IMG/VR virus record: IMGVR_UViG_3300042197_001836
Location: 1 to 22,551 of that record
Strand: one strand, 5' to 3'
Source of the DNA: a virus
Length of the DNA: 22,551 nt
Shown here: piece after piece, positions 1-20,589 of the stretch
Layout: the number at the start of each line of letters is the position of its first letter
How positions within the stretch are numbered: the first letter of the stretch is position 1
Made by a program: the position numbers and the translations under genes
Notes under the pieces: generated by a model
What the model saw: the letters and a program-made list of their open reading frames with translations, nothing else
What the model was told of the DNA's origin: nothing
The model's database searches: none

Positions 1-3000
1 AGCAGTGCTCTGATCGGCAGCAGTAGCAGCCTCAGGGTCTGTTTCATCATCATCTGCATGAGCCTCCATTGGCTGATGTAGATCGAGCTGGTCTTGCAAG
101 CGATCTGAAATCCAATTGATTGGATCACCATCGCGGGCCTTGGCAACACCATAGGGCATTTCGTCAAAATAGTATTCATAAAGTGCATCATAGAAATCTG
201 GAAAATCTGAAAGGTCTTCGCCCTCCTTAAAGGCTTTAACCGCTTCGGGGTAAGCATCAAGAATGGCGTCAAGACCTGAGCTGTTGCTTTCCTTGATTTC
301 AACCCCGGCTTTTTTCAATGCCGCAATAGCTGTGTCATCAAGTTCTGCAGAATCTAATTCTAGTTGTCCCTTGTTGTTGAATTTGACATCAGTGGTAGTG
401 CCAGTTTTGGCAAATTTAGTTTTGCCAGCAGTACCAGCCGCTGTAATAGTTCCCACAGTACCAATGTCTTCGCTGAATTGACTTTGGCGGAGAGTATTGG
501 CTGCATGGCGCACATAGTACACTGAGCCGTTGCGTGTGATATAGTGTGGTAAACGCTGACTGTCACCGCTCATGAATTCTGTGCCTGCCACTGGAATACG
601 AGTTACACGATTTTCCATGTCATATAAAATATAGCTCTTACCGTCTTGACTGACTCTTGCTTGGTCATAGATCTTGACGCTGCTGGCACCTACTTGTTGA
701 CGAGCACTTTGACGAGCAGCATCTATACGAGCTTGACGATCTACATTGGCCTGTGCGTCCCATGTTCTGCGCTGTGTTTCGCGCTCAAAGTCACGCTGGC
801 GAACACGCTCGCGATAGTTGGGACTAAAGATATCACTGAGCACTGAACCCACGCTGTGATTAAGTCCTGGATAGTGTGGATTTGCACCACCTTGTGCTTG
901 TGCTGAAGCACCGCCCATGGCAATACCAGCTGCCATTGCGGCTGGAATAATCTTCTTGGCCACATGTCCAAGAATGCTTTTGGCGTCCTCGCTGAGCCGA
1001 CCTTCTACAATGACGATAGCGTCAATGGGGTCTTGGTAGCGTTTTACCTGCTCAAGGATAACGCTTTCATGCAGGCTACTGCTAATCTGCTTGACTACGC
1101 GGCCTTCATGTACTAGTTGGATTCGAATCATGATTTCTTTTTCCTGTTTTAAATTGTTTAAGATTGTGTTGCGACCATTTTCTGCAATGTAACGCTGTGT
1201 CCATTGCTCGGCGATAGCCAAGCATTCTCTAATGAAATTTGCATCCTCATCAGTGATGCCTCTGCTGCCGCGGCCTCCGCGGCTGCGAATACGCTTGAGT
1301 TCATTGTAGGCAGCAACAATGGTATTTAGAGTATTGGTCAACTGTTTGATATTATGAGCAGCACCACGAAAAGCACCACCATGATTGCCTTCAAGGTCTG
1401 CTGCCAATGCGCGAGCTTCTCTGCGAGCCTTGTCTCTTAGACCTGCAAGACTATAACGACCTGCACCGCCCAGAACCAACACTTCAGAAGCATTCATTGG
1501 ATCTTCACGATCCAAACGATAGATAACGCTATCACTGTTTAGGGTGTGTGCCTCCGCTATACCTTTTGCTCGTGCTTCTTTTTCCAAGTCTAGTTTACGT
1601 TGACGAATTGCCTCTTGGTCATGACCTGGTTCGCGTTCTAAGTCTTGCAATACTCGGCGCTTTGCATCTAGGTCTTCTTTGCCTTGAAGTGCTGTTTCCG
1701 CCACACCTTCCTGCAGACCCGGAATAGGATGTAGCCCTTTGGGGATCTCGCCTGTCCAGTGTTGTGTTCCAGGGTGCTCTGGCAAATCGCGCATGGCATT
1801 GGGTTCGGCTAAGTCACATGACTTTGTGTGATGTAAAAAGATTGTACTGCCGCAATCGTAGCAAGGATAGGCATCAAAAGGATCTTGGCCGTCATCTCCG
1901 CCCGTTGAAAATTCATTCAAGGAGCCTTTCGCTAGACCTTTGTTTATTCTATTCAATTCATAGTGAACTTTATTACCAGCATCGGCCCTAAATGCTTTAA
2001 ACCCTAATGCTTTAGCATAACGCTGAACCAATCTATCATACAAATTAGCACGACTTTGTGTTTTTTGTCCAGGTTCAACTTCTTTGCTGGCTGAAAAGAT
2101 TACGCGGTTAGGTTTATATTTCTTAATAAATGTTCGAATAGCAACTAATACTGTAGCAAATATTCTCTGTGCGTCACCTTCGCCTGTTACTGCTTGACTG
2201 TCATTTCTATAAAATTCAACACTCCAGGCTTCTTCCCCTTCTTCATTTGCGTCTAGGTTAAACATGATACTTAGATCATCACCATTGGGTATTTCAGCGT
2301 AGGCTGTTACCTCATCCATGTCTAGTTCTGGATACCATTTTAGTTTGTAGGGTTGGTCAAAGGCTTCTTCTAACTCTTGTGCTTCCGCCACACCTTCCTT
2401 GTAAAATTGTTTTGCAGTATAGTGTCCTTCAATTTTTTTTGTTCTGGTATTGACAATATGATATTCTGTGTTTGAGTTTACTTCTTCTGACGCTAAGTCT
2501 TCTACAACTTTTAATGCTTCTCTCTTAGACAACATTTTAGTAGACACATCTTTTCCATTGATAAAGACCTTATAAACTCGACGATCGTATAACATTAGAT
2601 CTTCATCGCCTGCCATTGAATCTTTCCAATTTCCATCTTGCGTTTTGGTTTCCTTGCCATCCAATGATTTAGATTTACTCCCACCTAATTTGTCGCCTAT
2701 TGTTGAACCTACTATTCCGCCTGCAATCGCACCAGCGGCTGGCATTCCTATCATTGCTCCTAATTTAGCACCTGCCAAACTGCCCACGGTCGCTCCGGCA
2801 ATACCAGATTTCCAGCCCTCCGCCACAGCATGGCTTTCATAAACTCCGCGCCCAATATAGCTGGCACCCGAATCTGCTCGTTGCCCAACAGCACGACGAG
2901 CATTTTTTCTTCGAGCTCTGCGTGTACGGCCTGCAACAAACAAAGGATAGGCTACAGACGCAATATCCCCAGATGTAGTGGAGGCAGCGTCGGCTTCTTC

Positions 3001-3027
3001 GGTGGTAATGATCTGTCTAACTCGCAT
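1..3027 (-). CDS. Giant mosaic phage protein with GVAE repeats, 3' end outside window
   Basis: Uninterrupted frame of 1009 codons from ATG at 3027 to the window edge; no stop is seen, so the protein is longer. It begins with the tag MRVRQII. A glycine-zipper hydrophobic stretch lies at about residues 72-113. A module at about 224-345 ends in a YELNR-like segment; I recall similar modules in uncultured marine phages. A CxxC...HH...C cluster near residues 385-405 could bind zinc, and a charged helical stretch covers about 446-488. GVAE-type repeats sit at residues 67-71, 212-216, 441-445 and 489-493, mostly at module boundaries. Met633 (ATG at 1131, with AGGA upstream) starts a stretch that looks like its own protein: an amphipathic start, a small-residue hydrophobic segment near 690-710, a Gln/Arg-rich helix, then an acidic tail. 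Translation may therefore also begin there, but the frame is continuous. Function unknown; packaged virion or effector polyprotein is my inference. Confidence 0.8.
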   Translation of the reverse strand, partial: MRVRQIITTEEADAASTTSGDIASVAYPLFVAGRTRRARRKNARRAVGQRADSGASYIGRGVYESHAVAEGWKSGIAGATVGSLAGAKLGAMIGMPAAGAIAGGIVGSTIGDKLGGSKSKSLDGKETKTQDGNWKDSMAGDEDLMLYDRRVYKVFINGKDVSTKMLSKREALKVVEDLASEEVNSNTEYHIVNTRTKKIEGHYTAKQFYKEGVAEAQELEEAFDQPYKLKWYPELDMDEVTAYAEIPNGDDLSIMFNLDANEEGEEAWSVEFYRNDSQAVTGEGDAQRIFATVLVAIRTFIKKYKPNRVIFSASKEVEPGQKTQSRANLYDRLVQRYAKALGFKAFRADAGNKVHYELNRINKGLAKGSLNEFSTGGDDGQDPFDAYPCYDCGSTIFLHHTKSCDLAEPNAMRDLPEHPGTQHWTGEIPKGLHPIPGLQEGVAETALQGKEDLDAKRRVLQDLEREPGHDQEAIRQRKLDLEKEARAKGIAEAHTLNSDSVIYRLDREDPMNASEVLVLGGAGRYSLAGLRDKARREARALAADLEGNHGGAFRGAAHNIKQLTNTLNTIVAAYNELKRIRSRGGRGSRGITDEDANFIRECLAIAEQWTQRYIAENGRNTILNNLKQEKEIMIRIQLVHEGRVVKQISSSLHESVILEQVKRYQDPIDAIVIVEGRLSEDAKSILGHVAKKIIPAAMAAGIAMGGASAQAQGGANPHYPGLNHSVGSVLSDIFSPNYRERVRQRDFERETQRRTWDAQANVDRQARIDAARQSARQQVGASSVKIYDQARVSQDGKSYILYDMENRVTRIPVAGTEFMSGDSQRLPHYITRNGSVYYVRHAANTLRQSQFSEDIGTVGTITAAGTAGKTKFAKTGTTTDVKFNNKGQLELDSAELDDTAIAALKKAGVEIKESNSSGLDAILDAYPEAVKAFKEGEDLSDFPDFYDALYEYYFDEMPYGVAKARDGDPINWISDRLQDQLDLHQPMEAHADDDETDPEAATAADQSTA
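1550..1563 (-). repeat. GVAEG-family in-frame repeat, divergent copy (GIAEA)
   Basis: Minus-strand GGTATAGCGGAGGC, read as GIAEA at residues 489-493. It ends the charged helical segment and starts the next module. The peptide is conserved although the bases have drifted. Confidence 0.6.
1695..1707 (-). repeat. GVAEG-family in-frame repeat (GVAET)
   Basis: Minus-strand GGTGTGGCGGAAA, read as GVAET at residues 441-445. It is preceded by LQE and sits between the putative zinc-binding segment and a charged helical segment. Confidence 0.8.
2381..2394 (-). repeat. GVAEG-family in-frame repeat (GVAEA)
   Basis: Minus-strand GGTGTGGCGGAAGC, read as GVAEA at residues 212-216 and followed by QELEEA. 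The following bases continue nearly identical to the copy at 22018-22031, making a block of about 34 nt shared by the two end ORFs. Confidence 0.85.
2815..2829 (-). repeat. GVAEG-family in-frame repeat, divergent copy (AVAEG)
   Basis: Minus-strand GCTGTGGCGGAGGGC, read as AVAEG at residues 67-71 of the left mosaic ORF, just before the glycine-zipper module. It differs from the consensus GGTGTGGCGGAAGGC at two positions. Confidence 0.6.
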
Positions 3028-3047: not shown

Positions 3048-3088
3048 AACACTAACTGACTACTTTACTTATCATAATCGTTAGTGTT
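3048..3088. promoter_or_regulatory. 9-bp inverted repeat in the divergent control region
   Basis: AACACTAAC (3048-3056) and GTTAGTGTT (3080-3088) are perfect reverse complements separated by 23 nt, so the arm centres are 32 bp apart, about three helical turns. They lie in the 113-bp gap between the leftward mosaic ORF and the rightward small-gene operon. The spacing suits a dimeric or looping regulator serving both directions; a hairpin with a 23-nt loop is also possible. Apart from this repeat and the AT-rich promoter candidate at 3107-3115 I see nothing else in the gap. Confidence 0.5.
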
Positions 3089-3106
3089 AATATTCCGGGC
3101 CAATGG

Positions 3107-3115
3107 TTTTAAATA
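3107..3115 (+). promoter_or_regulatory. Candidate late-type promoter of the plus-strand operon
   Basis: TTTTAAATA followed by an AT-rich run, 26 bp before the first plus-strand gene. It resembles the TATAAATA-like late promoters of T4-type phages but is one base short and lacks a second element. Weak support; AT-rich sequence matches by chance. Confidence 0.3.
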
Positions 3116-3140
3116 TATGTATATTATCAACAGGAGACCC

Positions 3141-3425
3141 ATGATGGGAGAATTTCTAAAATTAGTAGCCGAAGTTGGCTTTCCTATTGCGGCTGCTATT
3201 GCCGCAGGCTATTTTGTATTTTTAACACTGAAATTTATTCTAGCTGGTGTCACCAGTAGTGTCAATGGCATCAAAGGCATCATTGGTGCCCTGGACAATC
3301 GTGTTAAAACCATGAATCATGATGTGATTCGCATTGACACAGTGGTTTCAAATGCACTGGGTCTCAAACCCGATGTAGACCGTATTGCAAGAGCAGACGG
3401 TAAAAATGACGCTCGTCGCGACTAA
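3141..3425 (+). CDS. Small single-span membrane protein, holin-like candidate
   Basis: 94 aa from ATG at 3141 (or the adjacent ATG at 3144). I chose this start, not the in-frame upstream ATG at 3084, because AGGAG lies just before it and no ribosome site precedes 3084. A hydrophobic helix covers about residues 9-35, followed by a helical region with NRVKTMNHDVIRIDTVV and a charged tail (RADGKNDARRD). The family feels familiar from marine T4-like phages, where such proteins are usually hypothetical or called holin-like; I cannot confirm that. It shares the pattern GFP(I/V)-AA-GY-LDR-DLIR with the gene at 4179, so the two are probably paralogues. It starts the plus-strand operon. Confidence 0.8.
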   Translation: MMGEFLKLVAEVGFPIAAAIAAGYFVFLTLKFILAGVTSSVNGIKGIIGALDNRVKTMNHDVIRIDTVVSNALGLKPDVDRIARADGKNDARRD

Positions 3426-4178: not shown

Positions 4179-4526
4179 ATGGATGTAGGCAATATTGCTG
4201 AAATGATTAACAAGTACGGATTTCCTGTGATCGCCGCCGGCGGCATGGGCTATCTGGTATACTATGTGTGGATTTGGGCCACCAAGGAAATCAAGCCCGT
4301 GTTGGGAGAAGCCAACACCACGCTGATCGCTCTCATTGACCGCATTCGCATGTTGGACAACGATCTTATTCGTCTGCAACAAAAGGTCAACACTACCCTG
4401 CACCTGCGTGGCAAGATCATTGAAAGTGAGCGTGTGCTAGAAGCTCAGAAAGTGGACAGCGAAGCCGACGCCAAATTCAAGCGAGCTGTCAGCGAAGAAG
4501 ACAAAAAGACTGCCGGCGAAGGTTAA
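4179..4526 (+). CDS. Single-span membrane protein, paralogue of the gene at 3141
   Basis: 115 aa from ATG at 4179, with a strong AAGGAG at 4166-4171. A hydrophobic segment at about residues 13-34 (GFPVIAAGGMGYLVYYVWIW) is followed by a helical stretch (LIALIDRIRMLDNDLIRLQ) and a charged, Glu/Lys-rich C terminus likely to form a coiled coil. It aligns without obvious gaps to the 3141 gene over the GFP...GY membrane segment and the LDR...DLIR helix. The two copies flank the three other small genes. Holin, spanin-like or membrane-scaffold roles are all possible; none is proven. Confidence 0.8.
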   Translation: MDVGNIAEMINKYGFPVIAAGGMGYLVYYVWIWATKEIKPVLGEANTTLIALIDRIRMLDNDLIRLQQKVNTTLHLRGKIIESERVLEAQKVDSEADAKFKRAVSEEDKKTAGEG

Positions 4527-4539
4527 CCGACTACACTCA

Positions 4540-5247
4540 ATGGGCCCGATAATCTACACCCTTCTCGTCACGCATCTTACCATAATTTGTGTTACACTTT
4601 ACCTACATCGCAGCCAAGCACACAGGGGAGTCACATTCAATCCTGTAGTAGCACACTTCATGCGCTTTTGGCTATGGCTAACAACTGGCATGGTTACTTG
4701 CCAATGGGTGGCAGTACACCGCAAACATCACAGATTCACTGAAGCCAATGGCGACCCACACAGCCCACACGTGTATGGCTTGTGGCAGGTGTTGTTTGGT
4801 GGTGCATTTTTATATCACACAGCCAGCAAAGACTTGGCGATGGTCGAACAATATAGTGCCGGCACTCCTGCGGATTGGATAGAACAAAAACTATATACTC
4901 CGCACAGTCGCATAGGTATCATGCTTATGTTGCTGATTGACATTCTGCTATTTGGTGCCTGGGGCTTTGTAGTTTGGGGTATTCAAATGATATGGATACC
5001 ATTTTGGGCCGCTGGTGTCATCAACGGCCTAGGACACTGGTGGGGATATCGAAATGGCGAAACTCGAGATCAAAGCAGGAACATTAGTCCCTGGGGCATT
5101 CTTATTGGCGGTGAATGTCTGCACAATAATCATCACCTTGAACCCGGCAATCCTCGTCTCAGTCGCCGCTGGTTTGAATTTGATATAGGCTGGCTTTATA
5201 TACGCCTGTTATGCATTTTCAAATTGGCTCGGCTTCGAGTCCAATAA
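4540..5247 (+). CDS. Fatty-acid desaturase, delta-9 (acyl-CoA/acyl-lipid) type
   Basis: 235 aa, integral membrane di-iron desaturase. The three histidine boxes are present: HRSQAH near residue 23, HRKHH near residue 60 and HNNHH near residue 196. Two hydrophobic hairpins lie in the expected places (residues 3-20 with 38-60, and about 127-165). Known family members use O2 and electrons to place a cis double bond in an acyl chain. At 235 aa it is short for the family; the C-terminal cytoplasmic tail is reduced but the catalytic boxes are intact. The start has no strong ribosome site. It is the last gene of the plus-strand operon and its 3' end overlaps the convergent oxygenase gene by 39 bp. 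Likely an auxiliary gene altering host membrane fluidity, together with the nearby ACP; exact substrate unknown. Confidence 0.9.
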   Translation: MGPIIYTLLVTHLTIICVTLYLHRSQAHRGVTFNPVVAHFMRFWLWLTTGMVTCQWVAVHRKHHRFTEANGDPHSPHVYGLWQVLFGGAFLYHTASKDLAMVEQYSAGTPADWIEQKLYTPHSRIGIMLMLLIDILLFGAWGFVVWGIQMIWIPFWAAGVINGLGHWWGYRNGETRDQSRNISPWGILIGGECLHNNHHLEPGNPRLSRRWFEFDIGWLYIRLLCIFKLARLRVQ

Positions 5248-5946
5248 AGAAAAATTATCCGCAATGTGCTGCCACACGCCCTGTGGGCTTTTTGTGTGTG
5301 ACCATACCAGCTGAGCACTCACAGTAATTCTCCTGCCGGGCCCTTGCAATACCAAGTGTGGTCTATTTGTTCGCAACAACGCACTGGGCACAGAACTAGC
5401 AGTTTCAAAGTCAAAATCTGGACATTCTGCCCAGGTTTTTCGTCCTTCTGCTAGATCTTGATACCAAGGCACATTCCACTGATTGTGATAAACGCCAGCG
5501 GCTTCTCGTTTGTATGGTACAAGATCTGTTACCGGCACATTCCACCAGCGAATAATGCCAGGACTGCTGGCCAACTCGTAGTAGCTTAGTCGAGCTTCTA
5601 ACATGACACTTTCGCCTGACGGTAAACGAGTACCGTCCACATGCGGACTTAGATTTTCACCATTGGCTCCGCTGACAAATAAAGTAAAATTACGGCATTC
5701 AATGCCCAATGGTTTTAGAAATTCATTGGTATTTTGGTGCGTGAGCGGGAAAAATCGTTTAACATCAGCCGCTGGGCTCATTAATTCACGATTGCGAGCT
5801 GTTTGTTCTTGAAAATTCTGATCTACATATTGAAGGAATTTCTGTTTTTCACTGAGCTCAATGCGTAGGCTCACAGGATAAAAGTATTCCTGGTGAGCCA
5901 CTGCCGCGCTGTAAGGGTCCGGTCTTGACAGATTCTTTGTGCCCAT
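5209..5946 (-). CDS. 2-oxoglutarate/Fe(II) oxygenase-like protein
   Basis: 245 aa. The cupin-type facial triad pattern is visible: SPHVDGTRLPSG (H-x-D) near residue 121, a distal His in NRPHLVLQG near residue 204, and an Arg in GRRITVSAQ near residue 215 that would bind the 2OG carboxylate. SYYELASSPGIIRWWN between them fits the double-stranded beta-helix core. This is the arrangement of small phage Fe(II)/2OG dioxygenases; the substrate (protein side chain, nucleic acid or lipid) cannot be told. ATG directly abuts the stop of the ACP gene, so the two are coupled. Its 3' end overlaps the convergent desaturase. The similarity is from motifs only. Confidence 0.7.
   Translation of the reverse strand: MGTKNLSRPDPYSAAVAHQEYFYPVSLRIELSEKQKFLQYVDQNFQEQTARNRELMSPAADVKRFFPLTHQNTNEFLKPLGIECRNFTLFVSGANGENLSPHVDGTRLPSGESVMLEARLSYYELASSPGIIRWWNVPVTDLVPYKREAAGVYHNQWNVPWYQDLAEGRKTWAECPDFDFETASSVPSALLRTNRPHLVLQGPGRRITVSAQLVWSHTKSPQGVWQHIADNFSLLDSKPSQFENA
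5278..5293 (+). terminator. Candidate intrinsic terminator of the plus-strand operon
   Basis: GCCC-TGT-GGGC followed by TTTTT, 30 bp after the desaturase stop, inside the antisense coding sequence of the oxygenase gene. The stem is only 4 bp though GC-only, so support is moderate at best. Confidence 0.35.
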
Positions 5947-6189
5947 TTAATTTTGAATTTTACTTGTCAATACTTTATAAGCCCGTTCCATGTTAGTAAT
6001 ATATTCAGCCTCGTCGTCGGTTATTTCAATTCCAAATGCTTCTTCCCAGGCCATGATTAATTCCGCTACATCCAGGCTGTCAATGTCCAATTCTCTAAAT
6101 TCAGTGTGAATATTGTCAACTTCGACGCCAAAGCATTCATGTACTATCTTATTGATACGAATTTCTACATCAGTAAACTGTTGTGGCAT
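5947..6189 (-). CDS. acpP: Acyl carrier protein
   Basis: 80 aa, small and acidic, matching ACP length. The phosphopantetheine attachment motif DSLDVAEL is intact (Ser at about residue 38), preceded by FRELDID and followed by helix III (FGIEITDDEAEYITNMERAYKVL), as in bacterial ACPs. Holo-ACP carries acyl chains as thioesters for fatty-acid synthesis. It lies nine bases after the cyclase stop and immediately before the oxygenase. AGTGAGA upstream of ATG is a passable ribosome site. Phage ACPs are known from large marine phages; here it may supply or divert acyl chains for the desaturase, or bind a host ACP partner. The symbol denotes family resemblance. Confidence 0.9.
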   Translation of the reverse strand: MPQQFTDVEIRINKIVHECFGVEVDNIHTEFRELDIDSLDVAELIMAWEEAFGIEITDDEAEYITNMERAYKVLTSKIQN

Positions 6190-6198
6190 AGATTTATC

Positions 6199-8244
6199 TC
6201 ACTTGCTTGTGGCTCTATAAGTACCGTCCCAGTTAGGCGGGAGGCCTTCATTCATGCGTTCCAGCATATTTTCATAATAGTGGCGCAATTCGTTGTCTTC
6301 TTTGATCAGCTTTTCACAGGCTCGAATGGCTCGTGTCCAGTCGCCTCTGTAGTATGCTGTCAAATATATATCGTGCTGAGTGGGGTTTGTCTTGCCCAAG
6401 GTGTAGATTTTCACGCCCTGTGTTTTGCCTTTTACAGCAATGCAATCCAGCTCGACCACAGGATATTCATCTCGCACCAACTCTGCTGTGCGCTGTCCTA
6501 GAACAATTTTGACACCATACGGCTTAGACTGGCCCTCGAGTCTTGACGCCAAATTAACACCGTCGCCAAGGCAAGTGTAATCAAAACGCTGATCGCTACC
6601 CATATTACCCACAACAACGGAGGCAGTATTAATGCCAAGACCCATACCAAATGCTGGTATACCTTCTGCTGTAACTTCTCGATTAAATTCATCCAGGCTT
6701 TCCATCATTTCTAAAGCAGTCTTTACTGCCATGTGTGCATGACGAGCTTCATCAAGCGGCGCATTCCAAAATGCCATTTGTGCGTCACCAATATATTTGT
6801 CCAGTGTTCCGTTGTTTTCAATGATCTTGGCTGTCATTGCTGTCATATAACGGTTCATAATCCGAGTAAGGCCTTGTACATCTCGGCCATAGTGTTCGGA
6901 GATTGTGGTAAACCCACGCACATCGGTGAACATGATTGACAGCTCGCGCTCATCACCGCCTAGTTGTAGCAGTTCAGGATTCTTTTGCAATTTGGCAACC
7001 AAGGCTGGACTTAGGTAAGTGCCAAACTGTTTCTTGATCTGTTGCTTTTGCTTAAATTCAATCACAAACCTAGCAAACAATGCATGTCCATACAGCAACA
7101 CCGCCGCAAATACCAGATAGTACATGTCCCAGAGCTGACTGTAACTGGACCACAGATACAGTCCGCCCTGCACAATGACAGTGACCAGACCAGCCAAGAC
7201 CAGGATGGCCGCCCAGAACGGTACACGGGGTATGGCAAAAATAACAATGGCTGCAATCAGCACAATGCCCAAGAGTTCTGCAATGTTTGACCAAGCAGGA
7301 CGAGTTGGACTTTCGCCGTCAATAAGAGTTTGGATAGCCTGTGCTTGTAGATTGTGTGCCCAGGTTTCACCACGCGGCGTAGCAATGATACCGCCAAGTC
7401 CTTCCACAGCCAGTCCCAGCACTACAATTTTACCTTTGAGGTCAAGGTCTCTGCGACTGAGATCTCCAAGCTCGTAGCTTTGAAATTCTTTGTTCCAGCG
7501 TAGCCATATGCGACCATTGGCATCAGTGTCTATAATAGGCTGTCCGGCAATGCGTACTTTTTCTACTCCGGCTTCAGTCATCTTCATTTGATAGCTTTGC
7601 TCGCCAGTGTAAACACGAAGTGCTTCAAGCGGCAAACTTGGGTAGTATTCTTTGTTGACTGTGACAACAAGCGGCATACGGCGCACAACTCCATCCACTT
7701 CAGGGGCCGCAACAGTGGTGCCAACACCACGAGCACTTGTAGCCAGTTCGGGTCGTGGACTCAGTGCGCCTGGCCAGTTGTACAACCAAATATAAGGATC
7801 ACCGCCCATGACAGCAACGCCGCGACGAACAGCGTCGGGCTTTTTGTTTTGTGTAGTTGGAGTTTGTGCAATAACACTGGGGGCTTTATTCAAAGCCTGT
7901 GCTAGTTCAGTGTCACCGCCTAACCTGTCTTTTTCTGTCATGAGAATGGGAACAACAATGGCGCCTGCATCAAGTTCTTGTATGCGCTCGATGACCTGTG
8001 CTATTTCTCTGCGGTCCCAAGGCCATTGACCAAGTCGTACCATACTGGGCTCGCCAATGTCAATGATCACAACTTCGTCACTGGCCGTGACTGTTTCACT
8101 GCTTAACAAAGTATCAAAGCCCTTGAGCTGTAGACTCTGTACTGCGGCTGGATTATAGACCTTGAGCCAAATTAACAAAGCGGCAGTAACAGCCACCCAG
8201 ACCACGCTCCATACACTGGGTATCATTTTTAAATACTTTTTCAT
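6199..8244 (-). CDS. CHASE2-domain class III adenylate cyclase
   Basis: 681 aa from ATG at 8244; GAGGTGA lies 6 bases before it, which decides against the TTG one codon upstream. Order: N-terminal membrane helix (about 10-29); extracytoplasmic CHASE2 sensor (about 40-310; IIDIGEPSMVRLGQWPWDR, then GDTELAQAL); three membrane helices (about 320-395); class III cyclase domain (about 430-615); and a short tetratricopeptide-like helical tail. Catalytic residues look complete: metal-binding Asp in FTDVRGF and in YIGD, the adenine-specifying Lys in LDKYIGD, Asp in FDYTCLGD, and Asn/Arg in GVNLASRL. It should make cAMP from ATP in response to a periplasmic signal. Such full-length receptors are typical of bacteria, so it is probably host-derived. 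It heads a coupled block with ACP and the oxygenase. Confidence 0.93.
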   Translation of the reverse strand: MKKYLKMIPSVWSVVWVAVTAALLIWLKVYNPAAVQSLQLKGFDTLLSSETVTASDEVVIIDIGEPSMVRLGQWPWDRREIAQVIERIQELDAGAIVVPILMTEKDRLGGDTELAQALNKAPSVIAQTPTTQNKKPDAVRRGVAVMGGDPYIWLYNWPGALSPRPELATSARGVGTTVAAPEVDGVVRRMPLVVTVNKEYYPSLPLEALRVYTGEQSYQMKMTEAGVEKVRIAGQPIIDTDANGRIWLRWNKEFQSYELGDLSRRDLDLKGKIVVLGLAVEGLGGIIATPRGETWAHNLQAQAIQTLIDGESPTRPAWSNIAELLGIVLIAAIVIFAIPRVPFWAAILVLAGLVTVIVQGGLYLWSSYSQLWDMYYLVFAAVLLYGHALFARFVIEFKQKQQIKKQFGTYLSPALVAKLQKNPELLQLGGDERELSIMFTDVRGFTTISEHYGRDVQGLTRIMNRYMTAMTAKIIENNGTLDKYIGDAQMAFWNAPLDEARHAHMAVKTALEMMESLDEFNREVTAEGIPAFGMGLGINTASVVVGNMGSDQRFDYTCLGDGVNLASRLEGQSKPYGVKIVLGQRTAELVRDEYPVVELDCIAVKGKTQGVKIYTLGKTNPTQHDIYLTAYYRGDWTRAIRACEKLIKEDNELRHYYENMLERMNEGLPPNWDGTYRATSK

Positions 8245-8266
8245 CAATATTCACCTCGCTAGAATA

Positions 8267-8303: not shown

Positions 8304-10013
8304 TCACTGGCCTTGGTTCACAGTGATTTTGGCACAGCCTCCAGCAGTGGCACAGTTGCTGGTAATAGAGTAGAACTGTTGGGTGCTGCCACTTTGGGTC
8401 AGACTTAGTTCCTGGGCCAAACCGCTTAGGTTAACTTGGGCCATGTGACTGGCGCTGCCTTGTTGAAGTATATCAACATTTTTGTTGCCACCACTGAGTG
8501 CGACTTCGGCATAATGGCTACCAGAATCTTTTTGTTGAATGGTCAGAGTGTTGTTGCTGTTGTTAACTGTGGCAAACACTCCCTTGGATCCGCCTGTGCT
8601 TTGCTGAGTTATGTTCACTGAGTTGTTGCTGCCAAATACATTCAACTCAGTGTAGTTTACCTGTGTGTTGACTGTACCGCTTTGTGTGATGTTTATGGTG
8701 TTTGAAGAACCATTGCCATAGTATTCGGCATAGTTCTGACGAGTACCTGTTTGCTGTACAGTGATGGTGTTCATGTTGCCAATCTGTTCAACATAGACCT
8801 TGCTGTCGTTGGTTGTGCGTCCGGTAAATGCCGAGACCTTTGATACATTGGTTGCATTGGCACTGAATGGTGCAGAACTGCCGCCACAGCACAAACTGCC
8901 TGGGTTGCTGACTACGGTACCAGAAGAAGTAGATGTGGTTGTGTCATTGGCATCGTAGATGAATGTGATTTCAGCTATCTGCATACTGTCACAGTTTAAT
9001 CCGCAACCGTCACCAGATTTAGTGGTTGGAAAGAAGATGTAGTAGAAAGCATAGGCTGCTGAATTGGTAACAGGTATTGTTGGGCTGGTCCAAAATCTAG
9101 TTTCACTGAGACTTAGAGCGCCATCTTGTATCAGTGTCCAGTTGACGCCGTCATTGCTGCCATATAACTTGTAGCTGGTGGGATCGCGACCACTGAAGTC
9201 ATTGGCAGTGGTAAGAGTAAAACCTGTGACCGCGCGACCAGCGTTGAGTTTTACAGTTACACCAGCGTTCTTTTTATCAAAGTTAAGGTACTTGGTATTG
9301 GGATTATTATCAAAGGCATTGGCAGCACCTTCTCCGGCTGGGCTGTTATTGCTGGTTGGATAATGATTAGTGATATACACAGGCGCATTTGCTGTAACGC
9401 CGCTGTTGTAGATCTTGGTTGGCGTGGGCGGTAGAGGCCCAGCAGTTTGTCCTGCTGCCAATGGTGTTGTAGACCCGTGGCTAGCGGCGAAGGTGTTTAC
9501 TTGTGTGGTAGTGGGATTAAGTGTACCAGTCCAGGTATAACCGCCAGTGCCTGACATTCCAAAGTTTGAACTGAATAGTTGTCCTGTGTTGTTATCATTG
9601 CCTACAAAGAAAAATAATGCTTTGCCATTGGCGTCAACACCCATATTAATAATATGACCTGTTCCAATGGTGCCTGCTACTGAGCCATCGCTGTTGTAAA
9701 CTTTGCCTTCGTAGGGGTCGGCTGCGTCACTGGTTAAATTAAACTGAACATATTGTCCGGTTTGCCAAGACCATTGTCCCGAGGTCCAAGGAATCTTATA
9801 CATGGTGCCCGGCTGGGTACTGTAGATTTGACAAGTGGTCGTGTACATACAAGCACTGACATTCCATTGGCTGTCAGCAATCTGATAACGACCAAATTTT
9901 AAATCTGTGAATGTCTGAGCATAAGCGCATTTACTGACAGCCAGCAAAAATACAGCTACAATTAGCCATGCCCAAAATTTTGGTCTAGCAGCATTTATTA
10001 TGTCTTTAATCAT
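8304..10013 (-). CDS. Secreted discoidin (F5/8 type C)-curlin repeat fusion
   Basis: 569 aa from ATG at 10013, which overlaps the stop of the 59-aa gene by 8 bases; an upstream TTG at 10043 is less likely. A signal peptide is clear (MIKDIINAARPK, hydrophobic FWAWLIVAVFLLAV, then CAYA). Residues ~30-205 are a beta-rich region with little similarity I can name. Residues ~225-365 resemble an F5/8 C (discoidin) galactose-binding-like domain (AFDNNPNTKYLNF; SYKLYGSNDGVNWTLI). From about residue 405 there are six or so curlin-like repeats, each with N-x-[IV]-x-[IV]-x-Q-x-G spacing and often Y-A-E. The protein could join an amyloid fibre and bring a carbohydrate- or lipid-binding head. Fusion of these parts is unusual. 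It ends the curli block. Confidence 0.85.
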   Translation of the reverse strand: MIKDIINAARPKFWAWLIVAVFLLAVSKCAYAQTFTDLKFGRYQIADSQWNVSACMYTTTCQIYSTQPGTMYKIPWTSGQWSWQTGQYVQFNLTSDAADPYEGKVYNSDGSVAGTIGTGHIINMGVDANGKALFFFVGNDNNTGQLFSSNFGMSGTGGYTWTGTLNPTTTQVNTFAASHGSTTPLAAGQTAGPLPPTPTKIYNSGVTANAPVYITNHYPTSNNSPAGEGAANAFDNNPNTKYLNFDKKNAGVTVKLNAGRAVTGFTLTTANDFSGRDPTSYKLYGSNDGVNWTLIQDGALSLSETRFWTSPTIPVTNSAAYAFYYIFFPTTKSGDGCGLNCDSMQIAEITFIYDANDTTTSTSSGTVVSNPGSLCCGGSSAPFSANATNVSKVSAFTGRTTNDSKVYVEQIGNMNTITVQQTGTRQNYAEYYGNGSSNTINITQSGTVNTQVNYTELNVFGSNNSVNITQQSTGGSKGVFATVNNSNNTLTIQQKDSGSHYAEVALSGGNKNVDILQQGSASHMAQVNLSGLAQELSLTQSGSTQQFYSITSNCATAGGCAKITVNQGQ

Positions 10014-10185
10014 GTGTTCTTTTAAACCAAGTTGTTTTGTCAAGCTCGGTTAGAATCACTGCGGCAGTGACTCCAGTCTCTCTGACAGCAAGCTCAACGA
10101 AGTCTTGCCAGCGAGCAATGTAAGAGTTGTTTTCTTGAATCCATTGTTGATACATTAGTTCTAGTTGTTTGACATTGGCCATCAT
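10006..10185 (-). CDS. Hypothetical 59-aa protein between FecR and discoidin-curlin genes
   Basis: ATGATG at 10185 overlaps the FecR stop (ATGA), and its own TAA lies inside the start of the next gene (8-base overlap). Both junctions indicate translational coupling, which is the main support for this ORF. The protein is soluble, without signal peptide, mostly helical (VKQLELMYQQWIQENNSYIA, then RWQDFVELAVRETGVTAAVI). No family recognised. A cytoplasmic factor for expression or chaperoning of the secreted neighbour is only a guess. Confidence 0.65.
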   Translation of the reverse strand: MMANVKQLELMYQQWIQENNSYIARWQDFVELAVRETGVTAAVILTELDKTTWFKRTHD

Positions 10186-11282
10186 CTTCGCAATACTCCG
10201 CCGTTTTGTTTAATGTAAATGTTATTACCACCACCGCCACCTGTGCCAATCACTTCAGTGGCACTTTGATCGTTGTGTACAATAGTAACGGTTGTGTTAC
10301 TGCTGTATCCTTGTGTTTTTACTTCGGCATAATGATCTTCGTTTGAACGAAATGCGATGCCGCGACCCTTTAGCTGTATGTCACTGGCTTCTGGATTGGT
10401 CCATGACACACAAACACTGGTGCTGGCATTACATCCGGTGGCACCTGCGCTTATTTGCATGGCTAAAATTCTGTCACGCTCAAGTTCTTCGTTGGTGTCT
10501 TGTACTCGTTGAGCAAGTCTTCTTTGTGCTTCGGCTTCAATTTCAGCTTCAATTTCTTCTCTTCTTGTGCGAGTGTGACTTCTTATTGCCTGAGCAACTT
10601 CTGGTGGTTTAGAAATAATTAATAGATTGTTGATCTTGCTTTCAACAATGTTGAGAATCACTGGTGGTGTAGGTTTAATGTCAAAAGAAATAATGTAAGT
10701 GAATTCAAATGCTTTGTCAAGCACTACAGTACCAGCGTCATTGGAGACCTCAATTCTACCTACTCTGCAACGGTTTTCTTCTAATTCATACTGCTTGACA
10801 TCTTTTTCATCTTTACAGCTGGGCAGTAGCACCACAAGACTTTGTCCTGTTTCATCCACAGTCATTGAAAAATCTGTGCCACGCACAGCAATGTTTGCTG
10901 TGGGAGTATTAACAGCAACCTGTTGCGGATTATTCTTGGCAATTTGTCCACTGGCATAGCGCACAGTGCCCATGCCAACTTTCATAGCAAGACGACCTGC
11001 ATCTGACTTGCGAGGGTCAAACACAAAGTCATCAATGACCAGCTTGGAATTTTCGGTAATCTTGACCTTGGTATCATCTCGGAATGTGATGGAACTAGCA
11101 CAAGCTTGGGTTCTGTATGTGTCCATGCTTTCAATGCTGGCGCCCTTGACTCCAGAAGTCACTGTGCGGCCTCGTTGCACTTCACACTGAGTACCTTTGT
11201 TTTCAGCAACCACACCAATGGGTGAGGCTAACACAGTACTCAGTTGAAGTGTCAGCACCAATATAAATGGTGACTTCCACAT
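10182..11282 (-). CDS. Secreted FecR-domain protein with C-terminal curlin-like repeats
   Basis: 366 aa with a signal peptide (WKSPFILVLTLQLSTVLAS). Residues ~30-150 match a FecR domain: GASIES, TFRDDTKVKITENSKLVIDD, then VAVNTPTANIAVRGTDFSM. A charged coiled-coil stretch (REEIEAEIEAEAQRRLAQRV) covers about 238-275. The C terminus (from about 305) holds curlin-like segments: DHYAEVKTQG, NNTTVTIVHN-type and NNIYIKQNG. FecR domains of this kind are often found in secreted or periplasmic proteins, not only in iron signalling. The combination suggests an accessory curli subunit or anchoring protein. It starts 3 bp after the curlin gene stop, and its stop overlaps the 59-aa ORF. Confidence 0.82.
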   Translation of the reverse strand: MWKSPFILVLTLQLSTVLASPIGVVAENKGTQCEVQRGRTVTSGVKGASIESMDTYRTQACASSITFRDDTKVKITENSKLVIDDFVFDPRKSDAGRLAMKVGMGTVRYASGQIAKNNPQQVAVNTPTANIAVRGTDFSMTVDETGQSLVVLLPSCKDEKDVKQYELEENRCRVGRIEVSNDAGTVVLDKAFEFTYIISFDIKPTPPVILNIVESKINNLLIISKPPEVAQAIRSHTRTRREEIEAEIEAEAQRRLAQRVQDTNEELERDRILAMQISAGATGCNASTSVCVSWTNPEASDIQLKGRGIAFRSNEDHYAEVKTQGYSSNTTVTIVHNDQSATEVIGTGGGGGNNIYIKQNGGVLRR

Positions 11283-11285
11283 TGT

Positions 11286-12104
11286 TTATCTCGAAATAGC
11301 AGTTACTGGATTAACAATGCTAGTACTACTTGTTCTAACAGTAATAGTATTATTGCTTCCTGTTGCTTGGATATTCACTGTGGTATCATTGGTGCCTTGC
11401 TGTTGTGTGGTAATGCTGTTGGTATTACCTGTCACGGAAGCAATTAACACATGTCCATTGGCGCCAGCCGAATCAGTTTGTTGAATATTAAAGATGTTGC
11501 TGTTGCCACTGACGGTCACTGTGCTACTACCATTGGAACTCATAAGTTCTTTGGTAATTTGGTTAGTGTCACCAGTTAAAACTGTTGTACTAGTAATATC
11601 ACTGCCAACAATTTCTTGTAGCATCAGGTTGTTGTCGCCGGTGATAGTTTCTGTCACAGTATTACGAAGGTTTAACGCATTGTTAGCATCGCCAATTATC
11701 AGGTTAGTAAGATTACTATTACCTGTAACTGTGCTGTTGTAAACGTTGTCGTTGCCTTGGATGTTGTATCTGGTAGCGTTGCCGTTACCGGTTTGTGTTA
11801 CACCAACTGTGTTTGAGCTACCTGTGATAGTAGCATAGTTTGACGAACTAGGTGCAGATGGGTTGAAAGTGGTTACACCTGTGGCATCAACGGTGGTAGC
11901 AGCCGTAGTGGCCACACCACCAATGTTGTTGCTGCCACCAACTTGTTGAAGTGTCACGGTATTGGCATTACCCACTTGTTCAATATAAACCTTGTTAGGT
12001 CCGGTAGCAGAAGCTTGCGCGAATGCACTATTGACACTTATGATACCAAGTCCGACTACCAAGGCCTGAAGCACAAGGTTTTTGTTTTCTTTAAAAAATG
12101 TCAT
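11286..12104 (-). CDS. Curlin-repeat secreted fibre subunit
   Basis: 272 aa. Signal peptide ending NSAFAQA, then a first repeat VYIEQVGNANTVTLQQVG that is close to the CsgA/CsgB repeat in its N and Q positions. Eight or nine further repeats of about 20-25 residues follow, rich in Asn, Thr, Ser and Val, many ending T-G-[ND]-x-N, but with fewer Gln than classic CsgA. Known curlins form beta-solenoid amyloid strands secreted through CsgG. At 272 aa it is longer than E. coli CsgA (151 aa). GGA lies only 5 bases before ATG. It follows csgG after an unusual 162-bp leader. Could be the fibre subunit or the nucleator. Confidence 0.88.
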   Translation of the reverse strand: MTFFKENKNLVLQALVVGLGIISVNSAFAQASATGPNKVYIEQVGNANTVTLQQVGGSNNIGGVATTAATTVDATGVTTFNPSAPSSSNYATITGSSNTVGVTQTGNGNATRYNIQGNDNVYNSTVTGNSNLTNLIIGDANNALNLRNTVTETITGDNNLMLQEIVGSDITSTTVLTGDTNQITKELMSSNGSSTVTVSGNSNIFNIQQTDSAGANGHVLIASVTGNTNSITTQQQGTNDTTVNIQATGSNNTITVRTSSTSIVNPVTAISR

Positions 12105-12266
12105 TTTTCCAATGGGCAGATTATTGTTCTCTACCTACTCTCCTGGGCGCTTTGCCCTCTGTACCGGAATTCTTATCCGGATTTGTAAGTCCTACTACTC
12201 TTGGACTTTTTTAAATTACTATCTAAGTATTTTTCTTCATCCTTTGCTAGATTCTTAGAATCCTTT
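12105..12266 (-). promoter_or_regulatory. 162-bp leader with four short hairpins before the curlin gene
   Basis: The longest gap in the window, otherwise densely packed. Four stem-loops follow in series on the minus strand: GATTC-TAA-GAATC (12250-12262), AAGTCC with GGACTT around a 10-nt loop (12187-12208), CCGGA with TCCGG around 7 nt (12164-12180), and GGGC with GCCC (12145-12157). No obvious sigma70 hexamer pair was found. It could stabilise or restrict the curlin message, making subunit levels differ from csgG/csgF. Confidence 0.45.
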
Positions 12267-13184
12267 TCATTCCACCGTTGTTCCTGCATCAGCTGCTGGT
12301 ACCTGGGGTGGCGTATTGGCTTGTGGCGGAACCAACTCATCTTTCTTTACCTCCGATGCTGGCAGAGCTGAAACTTGTTCTTTAAAAGACCAGTGTCCTT
12401 TGCGGGCACCTTCGCGAATAGTTTGCACGACTGCTGCCTGAACTGCCATGTTTATAGCCTTGTTAACACTTTCATTGATGTCAACACCGGTTTCAGCTTC
12501 TACTGCCATTGTACCGCTGTCAACGAATTTCAACACACCTGCTTTGTCTAAGTAGCTTAATACCGTTTTAGTAATGGTAACGCTGGTCAGTACTTCACCA
12601 GTGGCCACACTTACAGTACGCAAGTTGACTGTAACTGTGTCGCTTTGATACTGTGTTTGAGCTCCAATACCAAACAAGCGCACACCTGTACCACCGGTGA
12701 GTTGGTTTGTGTCGTAACCAACGATTCCGCCTTCAACAATAATACCAGCAAACACCATTGGCGGCAAAGGTCTAGCATCCTTGCCTTGATATAGTTCTCT
12801 GGCCTGACGAATCATCTGCCGCTCTTTGATGAGATTGTCTAGGCCTACTCGTTCCAGTACTGTGAACCAACGAGCTTCGCCGGCATCTTGCAACGCCTTG
12901 ATCAAATAGCTTTCTGCACCCTGTGTCACTGCGCTACTCAAGCTGGCCACATTGGGCAAGCTTTTACGCTGTCCTGTTTTGTCCATGAATCCATAGACTG
13001 CCACAGGGATTGGACCACCTGCAGGTGGTCCTAATGTTTCAGACTGTTTCTTTAGATAAGCGCCTTGATCAATCACAGGTTCTTCGTATTGATCTCCACT
13101 TATTCGTTCACGCAGGAATTCTCCTGTGGCGCAACCTGACAGTAGTAGTGTTAATGCCGTAGCAGTAAGTAGTCGAGTATTCAT
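12267..13184 (-). CDS. csgG: Curli secretion channel CsgG
   Basis: 305 aa outer-membrane lipoprotein: N terminus MNTRLLTATALTLLLSGCAT with lipobox LSGC. Conserved CsgG features are present: LERVGLDNLIKERQMIRQAR, VEGGIVGYDTNQLTGGTGV, LFGIGAQTQYQSDTVTVNLR and TITKTVLSY, colinear with E. coli CsgG (277 aa). CsgG oligomers form the channel for curlin export. The constriction loop differs from E. coli (SLPNVASLSSAV instead of a Tyr/Asn/Phe ring, with one extra residue). The C terminus carries a Pro/Ala-rich tail (about residues 265-305) absent from E. coli. Start has AAGGA upstream; 10 bp after csgF. CsgE is not visible here. Confidence 0.95.
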   Translation of the reverse strand: MNTRLLTATALTLLLSGCATGEFLRERISGDQYEEPVIDQGAYLKKQSETLGPPAGGPIPVAVYGFMDKTGQRKSLPNVASLSSAVTQGAESYLIKALQDAGEARWFTVLERVGLDNLIKERQMIRQARELYQGKDARPLPPMVFAGIIVEGGIVGYDTNQLTGGTGVRLFGIGAQTQYQSDTVTVNLRTVSVATGEVLTSVTITKTVLSYLDKAGVLKFVDSGTMAVEAETGVDINESVNKAINMAVQAAVVQTIREGARKGHWSFKEQVSALPASEVKKDELVPPQANTPPQVPAADAGTTVE

Positions 13185-13194
13185 ATGTCAATCC

Positions 13195-13683
13195 TTAAAT
13201 TCTAAATGCTGCATATGGCATTACTAGTTCGGTAAAGTTGTTGGGGTTACCAATTTCTTCAATGCGTACAATGATATTGTTACCAGAAATACGCCAGGTT
13301 ATGTTCTGTCCGCCAATGTCAATGTCACCACAAGGTCCACCCGAAGACAATGGAGTACATGTTGGAGTGCCTGTAGATGAACCAAACAAGCTGTCAGTGA
13401 TGCGTTTTGCTAGTTCACTGTAGATTCGTGTTTCCATGCTGGCTTGGAATCTAGCCTGTGGTGTGTTGGCTGCGGCTCTTTCTGCAGCCTGCTTGATTGC
13501 ATCTGCGGCAGCTTTGTTTTTGTCTTTTTGCTGATCTTCTAATTGTTTTAGTGTCAGCACATGACTACTCCATCCCAAGCCTGAGAATGAAGGACTGTTG
13601 AAGTTATGTTGAAGTTCAGCGGCAGCAACGGAACTAATCGCACACATTGCCGCGGCAGTAACAAGACAATTTTTAATTTTCAT
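13195..13683 (-). CDS. csgF: Curli assembly factor CsgF
   Basis: 162 aa with a signal peptide (MKIKNCLVTAAAMCAISSVA-A). The mature N terminus LQHNFNSPSFSGLGW matches the CsgF region that inserts in the CsgG pore (NP-F-G type), and the C-terminal part (FQASMETRIYSELAKRITDS, then GDIDIGGQNITWRISGNNII) matches the CsgF core. An extra Lys/Ala/Gln-rich helical stretch lies in the middle (about residues 52-80). Known CsgF binds CsgG at the cell surface and couples secretion to nucleation. csgF-csgG is co-transcribed with csgF first. The ribosome site is weak (TTAGGGTTAG). Confidence 0.9.
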   Translation of the reverse strand: MKIKNCLVTAAAMCAISSVAAAELQHNFNSPSFSGLGWSSHVLTLKQLEDQQKDKNKAAADAIKQAAERAAANTPQARFQASMETRIYSELAKRITDSLFGSSTGTPTCTPLSSGGPCGDIDIGGQNITWRISGNNIIVRIEEIGNPNNFTELVMPYAAFRI

Positions 13684-13701
13684 ACAAACTAACCCTAAGT
13701 T

Positions 13702-13724
13702 TATAGTGGGGTCATACCACTATA
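13702..13724. promoter_or_regulatory. 8-bp inverted repeat upstream of csgF
   Basis: TATAGTGG (13702-13709), seven-base loop, CCACTATA (13717-13724): perfect arms ending 19 bp before the csgF start. Could be an operator or a leader hairpin that covers the ribosome site. It lies next to the shared TAGTGTTATTT motif (13728-13738). Confidence 0.5.
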
Positions 13725-13727
13725 GTA

Positions 13728-13738
13728 TAGTGTTATTT
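13728..13738 (-). promoter_or_regulatory. Shared upstream motif AAATAACACTA before csgF
   Basis: Minus-strand AAATAACACTA, identical to the sequence upstream of the gene at 16309 (16364-16374) and related to TAACACTA at 3082-3089 upstream of the left ORF. Likely a promoter or activator element of the leftward transcription units. The csgF copy is followed by CTATACT, which could act as a -10. Confidence 0.45.
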
Positions 13739-13761
13739 AAAAGGAAAGTATAAAAAATTAA

Positions 13762-13778
13762 AAAGGTGCTTAACCTTT
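13762..13778 (-). terminator. Intrinsic terminator after the 484-aa gene
   Basis: On the minus strand, AAAGGT-TAAGC-ACCTTT followed by TTAATTTTTT, 5 bp after the stop. A 6-bp stem and U-rich tail fit Rho-independent termination and separate this gene from the curli unit. Confidence 0.6.
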
Positions 13779-13783
13779 AACTG

Positions 13784-19746: not shown

Positions 19747-20589
19747 TTACATCACATAAATCTTGCCAACAGCTTCGCTGAGCACATCGCTGAACATGAT
19801 TTCCATGTCTCTGGCCAGCAATTCTGTGGCATGTTGTCTTTCTGTTTCATCTCTAAGCTCTGCTGATCGCACAGACATAACTCTAGTAGGTCGACCCCAG
19901 GCTTGTCGACCATACCCAATGCTCACTGGCAGAGGATTAAGTTCGATTCGGCCTTTGCCCAAGTATTGTGCAAACAGTTCATAGAGGAATTCATAGGGTC
20001 TGCGTATTTCGCCTTCTCTACTGCTACGCTGTGTACCAATGGCATTGAATAAAGCATTGTATTCTTTGCTGAGTTCATATTTTAATTCGCCACCAGGCTG
20101 GCCAGCCTTGCCGTAGAAGGCTTGTAGTATTTGATTGATGTTGCTGAAAAAGTGTCGTTCGGCTTCTTGCCAAGTGTTGCTGGTAGCTTTCTTGCCTCTT
20201 CCACCGGCCACAATGGCATGACCAAATCTATGTGCCATAACCCAAGGAGTAAGCATACGCTTGGCATCTCCCTTGTTGCCCACAAACACTATGGTAATGG
20301 CATCTTCATGCCCGCGAACAATTTCTTCGCCATCCTCGCCAAAAATAATTTTCACAGTTGCCGGATCCATTGGGCCATATTCGCTGTAGCGTCCAGTGCC
20401 AGATACATTGCTGAAAAACAAGCGAAAATCATAAGGAGTTTGTTCAAAGAATCTTTCGGCCTTGATGCGATTCCGTGGATGCGGAACCAGCTTTTTATCA
20501 GGCCCTCTAAAAGGACCGGGTTTATCGAAGTTACCAATGGGCTGATAATCAGCCATGGGTACTTCGCTGATTATGTCACGCAATCTCAT
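19747..20589 (-). CDS. 280-aa phage protein, degenerate zincin-like
   Basis: ATG at 20589 overlaps the previous stop (TGATG). N terminus MRLRDIISEV is the best form of the tag shared in this window. Residues ~122-133 (TPWVMAHRFGHAI) look like an HExxH metalloprotease helix with the catalytic Glu replaced by Arg, and PYEFLYELFAQYLG (about 203-216) sits where a third zinc ligand is usual. If zinc still binds, protease activity is unlikely because the general base is lost. The C terminus ends LSEAVGKIYVM. It may be a structural or packaged relative of zincins. Family not recognised with certainty. Confidence 0.75.
   Translation of the reverse strand: MRLRDIISEVPMADYQPIGNFDKPGPFRGPDKKLVPHPRNRIKAERFFEQTPYDFRLFFSNVSGTGRYSEYGPMDPATVKIIFGEDGEEIVRGHEDAITIVFVGNKGDAKRMLTPWVMAHRFGHAIVAGGRGKKATSNTWQEAERHFFSNINQILQAFYGKAGQPGGELKYELSKEYNALFNAIGTQRSSREGEIRRPYEFLYELFAQYLGKGRIELNPLPVSIGYGRQAWGRPTRVMSVRSAELRDETERQHATELLARDMEIMFSDVLSEAVGKIYVM

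Follow-up and report, generated by a model that had tools for sequence, protein, structure and literature searches.

Phage curli genes have been a puzzle, with a bare pore, a lysis timer, a nutrient channel and a fibre as candidate products. Here, the IMG/VR virus record IMGVR_UViG_3300042197_001836 was analyzed as a whole (22,551 nt; hereafter the window). Its list of open reading frames (ORFs) and a Pfam scan revealed a set of six genes between 13683 and 6199, all of them minus-strand, in the order csgF-csgG-cur1-fecR-cur2-AC, with AC standing for an adenylate/guanylate cyclase. As argued below, with a probability of roughly 0.6, the infected cell would use this module to secrete a curli fibre that bears an exchangeable, probably glycan-binding adhesin. 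The module comprises the following features:

13720..13770, minus strand: csgF leader with a TAAATA box (TTTTAAATA in the window), the probable module promoter (box in 70 of 77 csgF leaders, 11 expected).
13195..13683, minus strand: csgF, secreted pore partner (PF10614 1.3e-7, above the Pfam cut-off; N-terminal F..P.F.G segment kept).
12267..13184, minus strand: csgG, outer-membrane pore lipoprotein of the CsgG family with lipobox LSGC (PF03783 2.6e-51; match to the solved CsgG structure 2.7e-50).
11286..12104, minus strand: cur1, undecorated curlin and presumed main fibre subunit (period 22, conserved G/N/Q columns).
10182..11282, minus strand: FecR-domain protein with a single curlin-like strand at its C-terminus, presumably located in the periplasm (PF04773 1.6e-9; Q359 invariant).
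8304..10043, minus strand: cur2, decorated curlin (PF00754 2.7e-11, AlphaFold2 model, CBM32-type fold with Z 19.3, modularity).
6199..8247, minus strand: CHASE2-adenylate/guanylate cyclase with catalytic residues present (PF05226 5.9e-44, PF00211 6.9e-20).

A preliminary description of this stretch had placed csgF, csgG, a curlin, a FecR protein and a discoidin-curlin protein at these positions, and ORFs and Pfam profiles agree for all five. It had overlooked the cyclase as sixth gene, and its label of a "FecR-curlin" protein holds for the FecR domain while overstating the curlin part, which amounts to a single strand. It had also noted that CsgE and CsgD are not seen; indeed, no match to CsgE, CsgC or CsgD of the enterobacterial type was found among the window proteins scanned, and the operon has no space for csgE. 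With the listed starts, the intergenic gaps from csgF to AC are 10, 82-162 (depending on the start chosen), 3, 138 and 56 nt, and such short gaps are consistent with a single operon. Scanning viral contigs with CsgG and Cur2 yielded 154 loci, with some contigs counted twice. The gene order was exactly the same in 95 of the 98 loci that extend from csgF to AC, and also in the phages HTVC008M and Melnitz; in the remaining three loci, frames are split. The five genes first described thus recur in other phages together with the cyclase, as a six-gene module. All 80 CsgF homologues carry the motif F..P.F.G in the N-terminal segment, by which proteins of the CsgF family bind CsgG.

In the window, Cur2 consists of a signal/transmembrane segment, a domain N (~residues 26-205), a discoidin domain D (~207-369) and a curlin solenoid C (~396-579). 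Its length varies from 147 to 796 residues among the loci. The C-terminal curlin domain was present in every complete Cur2 copy from a curli locus, and the modules ahead of it are combinations of N, D (discoidin, CBM32-like), PA14 (PA), X10 and X7. Architectures were counted in loci ascertained with CsgG, which were not selected by Cur2 and of which 58 have a complete cur2: N-D-C (14), PA-C (12), X10-D-C (9), N-C (8), X7-C (7), C alone (6), D-C (1) and X10-C (1), which means that 52 of the 58 copies have a head. Over 79 CsgG rows, the 11 architectures require at least 38 changes on the CsgG tree (a quick build with many weak forks, used for counting changes and not for origins), compared to 47.6 with shuffled labels (lowest 44). 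Cur2 architecture is therefore only loosely tied to descent. An example of this is the pair L009 and L015, which are 94-96% identical in CsgF, CsgG, Cur1 and FecR and 81% identical in the Cur2 C-terminus, and whose heads are N and X10-D, respectively. Judged by these comparisons, Cur2 joins exchangeable N-terminal modules to a curlin solenoid that is conserved at the C-terminus.

What the head might bind is suggested by its domains. Both profile and fold identify D of the window as a discoidin domain: it matches PF00754 (F5_F8_type_C, 2.7e-11), and its model resembles CBM32-type galactose-binding structures with Z scores of ~15-19 (best 19.3) over ~125-145 residues. In several adhesins, glycans are bound by a PA14 fold. 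The Cur2 head is probably sugar-binding. Domain N was modeled with confidence (predicted local distance difference test, pLDDT, 89) and had no fold match at E ≤0.001 in PDB or BFVD, which is not proof of a new fold. Of 150 loci found with N or D alone, 147 were curli loci, which makes a borrowing of the heads from tail fibres look unlikely; that tail fibres share them found no support in these scans, whose reach is limited to fairly close relatives. In two of the three exceptions, both of which lack csgG, N-D sits on an autotransporter-type protein. The proteins in question are phage proteins of 783-784 amino acids with an N-D adhesin module (L127/L299 and L131/L286, on contigs of 24.8 and 367 kb), and in L127/L299 an autotransporter beta-domain (PF03797 3.7e-9) is joined to the module. 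This arrangement independently suggests surface display.

The fibre part of both subunits is supported by several features of their repeats. Self-similarity peaks at a lag of 22 in Cur1 and of 23 in the Cur2 C-terminus, G..N...Q motifs exceed those in composition shuffles (P 0.0002 and 0.014, respectively), and evenly spaced G/N/Q columns are conserved across 29 Cur1 and 80 Cur2 homologues. In the AlphaFold2 model, the Cur2 C-terminus forms a regular strand-turn-strand solenoid with pLDDT mostly 80-94. We therefore regard the curlin repeats of Cur1 and Cur2, as predicted from sequence and model, as real despite their sub-threshold Pfam scores. In the FecR protein, all 27 homologues keep Q359 of the C-terminal curlin-like strand. 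The conserved columns of the two subunits would be superfluous in a bare pore. A different proposal, discussed in PMC7029224 and PMC9599517, is that an ungated CsgG allows macromolecules, cofactors or siderophores to enter the infected cell. The lack of the CsgE gate and the naming of FecR after an iron regulator would fit such an uptake pore. Against it, uptake has no need for CsgF, two curlins and swappable heads, and the FecR domain here belongs to a broad envelope family and is not evidence of iron sensing. We consider uptake hardly probable.

The reading that we favor, a secreted fibre with an adhesive head, can be outlined as follows. The CsgG lipoprotein would form an outer-membrane pore in which, by homology, CsgF is seated. 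Cur1 would be exported to build the fibre, and Cur2 would exit by the same pore and join the fibre through its C-terminal solenoid, so that the N-terminal head (in the window, N plus the CBM32-like discoidin domain) would be displayed outside as an adhesin. The FecR protein and the cyclase would act as an envelope sensor: FecR, periplasmic and ending in a curlin-like strand, probably signals the state of secretion or of the fibre to CHASE2, and the cyclase would in turn make cyclic AMP (cAMP). The head would attach to glycans of nearby cells, of particles or of matrix, and thereby hold hosts near the burst or mask the infected cell. Because heads are exchanged between phages much like receptor-binding parts, glycan binding seems the likeliest job. 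The parts, their order, their conservation and their modularity are visible in the sequences themselves, whereas export, fibre formation, glycan binding and the benefit to the phage are what we infer. The preference for fibre display over a bare pore, already expressed in the preliminary description, is favored by the conserved curlin subunits, the order kept in 95 of 98 loci and the exchangeable lectin-like head. More tentatively, phages may have evolved a modular surface adhesin whose curlin solenoid serves as a universal plug, fitting exchangeable glycan-binding heads to an amyloid fibre. Such an adhesin would be a reshuffled "receptor-binding fibre" borne by the infected cell instead of the virion, and would select the cells or particles to which the infected cell sticks. 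If the favored reading is true, infected cells would wear phage-chosen adhesins, with consequences for aggregation, for attachment to particles and for the spread of phages through dilute waters. Exchangeable lectin-like heads on a conserved fibre subunit suggest that the fibres have a specific binding partner, and offer a handle for adhesion tests.

Several observations weigh against this reading. The curlin repeat scores 14.9 bits in one subunit and 15.2 in the other, under the Pfam cut-off of 20.7, Cur2 is bare in 6 of the 58 phages, and its passage through the CsgG pore into the fibre is only deduced. CsgE is absent from the window proteins scanned; since CsgE, CsgC and CsgD are likewise reported to be absent from phage and alphaproteobacterial modules (PMC9599517), these accessories do not define that branch. 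The transition-state Asn of the cyclase (residue 565 in the window) is replaced by Ser in 37 of 50 aligned phage CHASE2-cyclases, which makes cAMP output uncertain in most relatives. Finally, no clumping was observed with Melnitz (PMC9004378), although this phage has a Cur2 without any head that we could recognise.

When the module would be expressed is suggested by the csgF leader. The TAAATA box lies mostly 20-45 nt ahead of the start codon and was found in 0 of 75 csgG leaders. Its consensus in csgF leaders is TTTAAATACTA, and late promoters of T4 and cyanophages read TATAAATA/NATAAATA (PMC2984593); an exact TATAAATA does not occur in the window. The base preceding TAAATA was A in 0 of 68 csgF leaders, compared to 18 of 34 boxes located at 14-60 nt in one jumbo contig, where late-type boxes stand ahead of tail sheath, terminase, virion-structural and tail-fibre genes. 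We conclude that the csgF box is conserved and probably a late-type or dedicated promoter, and that the curli module would likely be expressed late. This timing matters for the suggestion (PMC9599517) that a curli coat conceals receptors from rival phages. A coat that is both varied and glycan-binding could hide glycans of the cell surface, but should the csgF box be a late-type promoter, the coat would form late for this purpose, and we regard superinfection exclusion as unlikely.

Between the box and the start codon, a hairpin is present in the csgF leader of the window (within 13684-13783) and in those of L007, L011 and L020, with apparent compensatory changes between relatives of the window's subclade. 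A hairpin general to csgF leaders was rejected, as only this subclade has one and the mean z was -0.55 over 66 leaders. An Rfam scan of the window gave no match.

A different spacing was seen in G026, a 353-kb jumbo contig of which 240 kb were covered (L400-L411). Here TAAATA starts 10-13 nt ahead of ATG in 20 of 247 ORFs, with 11 of these 20 at exactly 11 nt and about one per position elsewhere. A Shine-Dalgarno sequence is lacking in 17 of the 20 close-box ORFs, compared to 109 of the 227 others (Fisher P 0.002). If these close boxes are of the T4 late type, they would place the transcription start at the ATG and give leaderless late mRNAs. The genes concerned include the terminase large subunit and the cyclase of the curli module.

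How does the module compare with known systems? The genes csgF, csgG and partners were reported in pelagimyophages, with "sibling capture" proposed (PMC7029224). In 2022, CsgA/B repeats, FecR and cyclase were identified in podo- and myophages and the full module of CsgF, CsgG, CsgA/B copies, FecR and AC was published, with an alphaproteobacterial origin (PMC9599517). HTVC008M, pelagimyophages and HTVC023P-type podophages (PMC7029224, PMC9599517) have the same six genes in the same order as the window, with a CsgG ~50% identical. The Cur2 head of HTVC008M is PA14 instead of N plus discoidin and, unlike in pelagiphage systems, the window's relatives include jumbo genomes; GC content is ~45%. The preliminary description had contrasted the window with HTVC008M as a bare pore, which was mistaken, since HTVC008M has csgF-csgG-curlin-FecR-curlin-cyclase with PA14 in place of discoidin. 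Its view of an expanded set as new likewise fails for the six genes, already published for pelagiphages and Melnitz, and stands for the decorated Cur2 heads. In the literature searched, which lacked most subscription journals, we did not come across adhesin domains on Cur2, a curli module in jumbo phages, Cur2 head exchange, the near-confinement of N and D to curli loci or a TAAATA box ahead of csgF. The window set is therefore a variant of a known phage module and not a new kind of system, the new part being the exchangeable Cur2 head.

The Methylophilales phage Melnitz shares the six-gene order, and a lysis role was proposed for its curli genes on the premise that fibre subunits are missing (PMC9004378). 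CsgG and CsgF would then be repurposed as a pore or pinholin that times lysis, the subunits being secondary, and the resemblance of the csgF box to T4-type late promoters would suit such a device. The premise does not hold, however, as the subunits are present in Melnitz, and the conserved curlin columns, exchangeable heads, FecR and cyclase would be left unexplained. A lysis or release device is therefore quite improbable.

In nearly all loci, the fibre genes are accompanied by FecR and the CHASE2-cyclase. This constancy could mean that signalling is central, with the pore and subunits serving as a sensor surface and the fibre being of little weight; the same pair also stands beside curli on a Hyphomonas chromosome. 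Such a role would leave head swapping unexplained and sits poorly with the Asn to Ser change in most homologues, so we find it very doubtful. The window cyclase itself has the full class III catalytic set (D442, K484, D488, D562, N565, R569). That most phage cyclases are dead was rejected, because in the alignment columns of the catalytic set only the Asn varies, to Ser.

The nearest alphaproteobacterial chromosomal layout was found in Hyphomonas sp. TMED17 (L166), where csgF-csgG-curlin-FecR-CHASE2-cyclase lie on a 705-kb contig with metabolic genes around. It differs from the window in lacking Cur2, and its CsgG is 45% identical. This metagenome-assembled genome (MAG) holds the sole cellular operon found with curlin, FecR and CHASE2-cyclase. 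Among 289 genomes of its class, 59 had FecR-domain matches, and a long match beside curlin and cyclase occurred only in the seed, in the short flanks fetched; neither FecR nor cyclase was seen near the sphingomonad and similar curli operons examined. Based on this one MAG, phages may have received the sensor pair along with the cellular module and may have added the decorated subunit themselves. The Caulobacter holdfast anchor HfaABD, whose CsgG-like pore presumably exports the curlin-like HfaA and the adhesin-like HfaD (PMC6707917), resembles the window in combining such a pore with curlin-like and adhesin-like cargo. It is unlike the window in being chromosomal, in its operon and in having an adhesin that is not a curlin fusion.

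The phage origin assumed so far holds: the window is a whole virus record, and its large relatives carry phage genes. Among 50 related contigs, the T4-type major capsid protein gp23 (8 contigs over the family cut-off) or terminase (9) was found on carriers of 202-372 kb, which marks them as jumbo T4-superfamily phages; smaller pieces simply miss these genes. The large carriers of the module are freshwater viruses of bacteria, in contrast to the ocean phages from which it was known in outline. With 92-93% identity in CsgG, contigs of 7.7-33 kb are most closely related to the window, whose whole DNA had no near match among deposited phages. Seven loci from bacterial MAGs (L162-L165, L167, L168 and L238) are probably mis-binned phage contigs, given their phage-like CsgF scores and mostly short contigs.

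Other genes of the window were also inspected. Long minus-strand ORFs at 1-3027 and 20589-22551 contain repeated GVAE[A/G/T] motifs between unrelated domains, which we take to resemble T4 prohead-protease sites, and may encode capsid-processed, injected polyproteins. Two small proteins, paralogous and each with a single hydrophobic segment (3084-3425 and 4179-4526, plus strand; phrog_18771, unknown function), are possibly holin-like; a similar-looking ORF occurs in G026 at position 49814, ~9.5 kb past csgF. A DesA-type fatty-acid desaturase is encoded at 4540-5247 (plus strand), with no relatives in phage records by tblastn. An acyl carrier protein (5947-6189, minus strand) follows directly after the cyclase, next to a protein without Pfam or PHROG matches (5209-5946, minus strand). 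These last three could be lipid-modification genes beside the curli operon.

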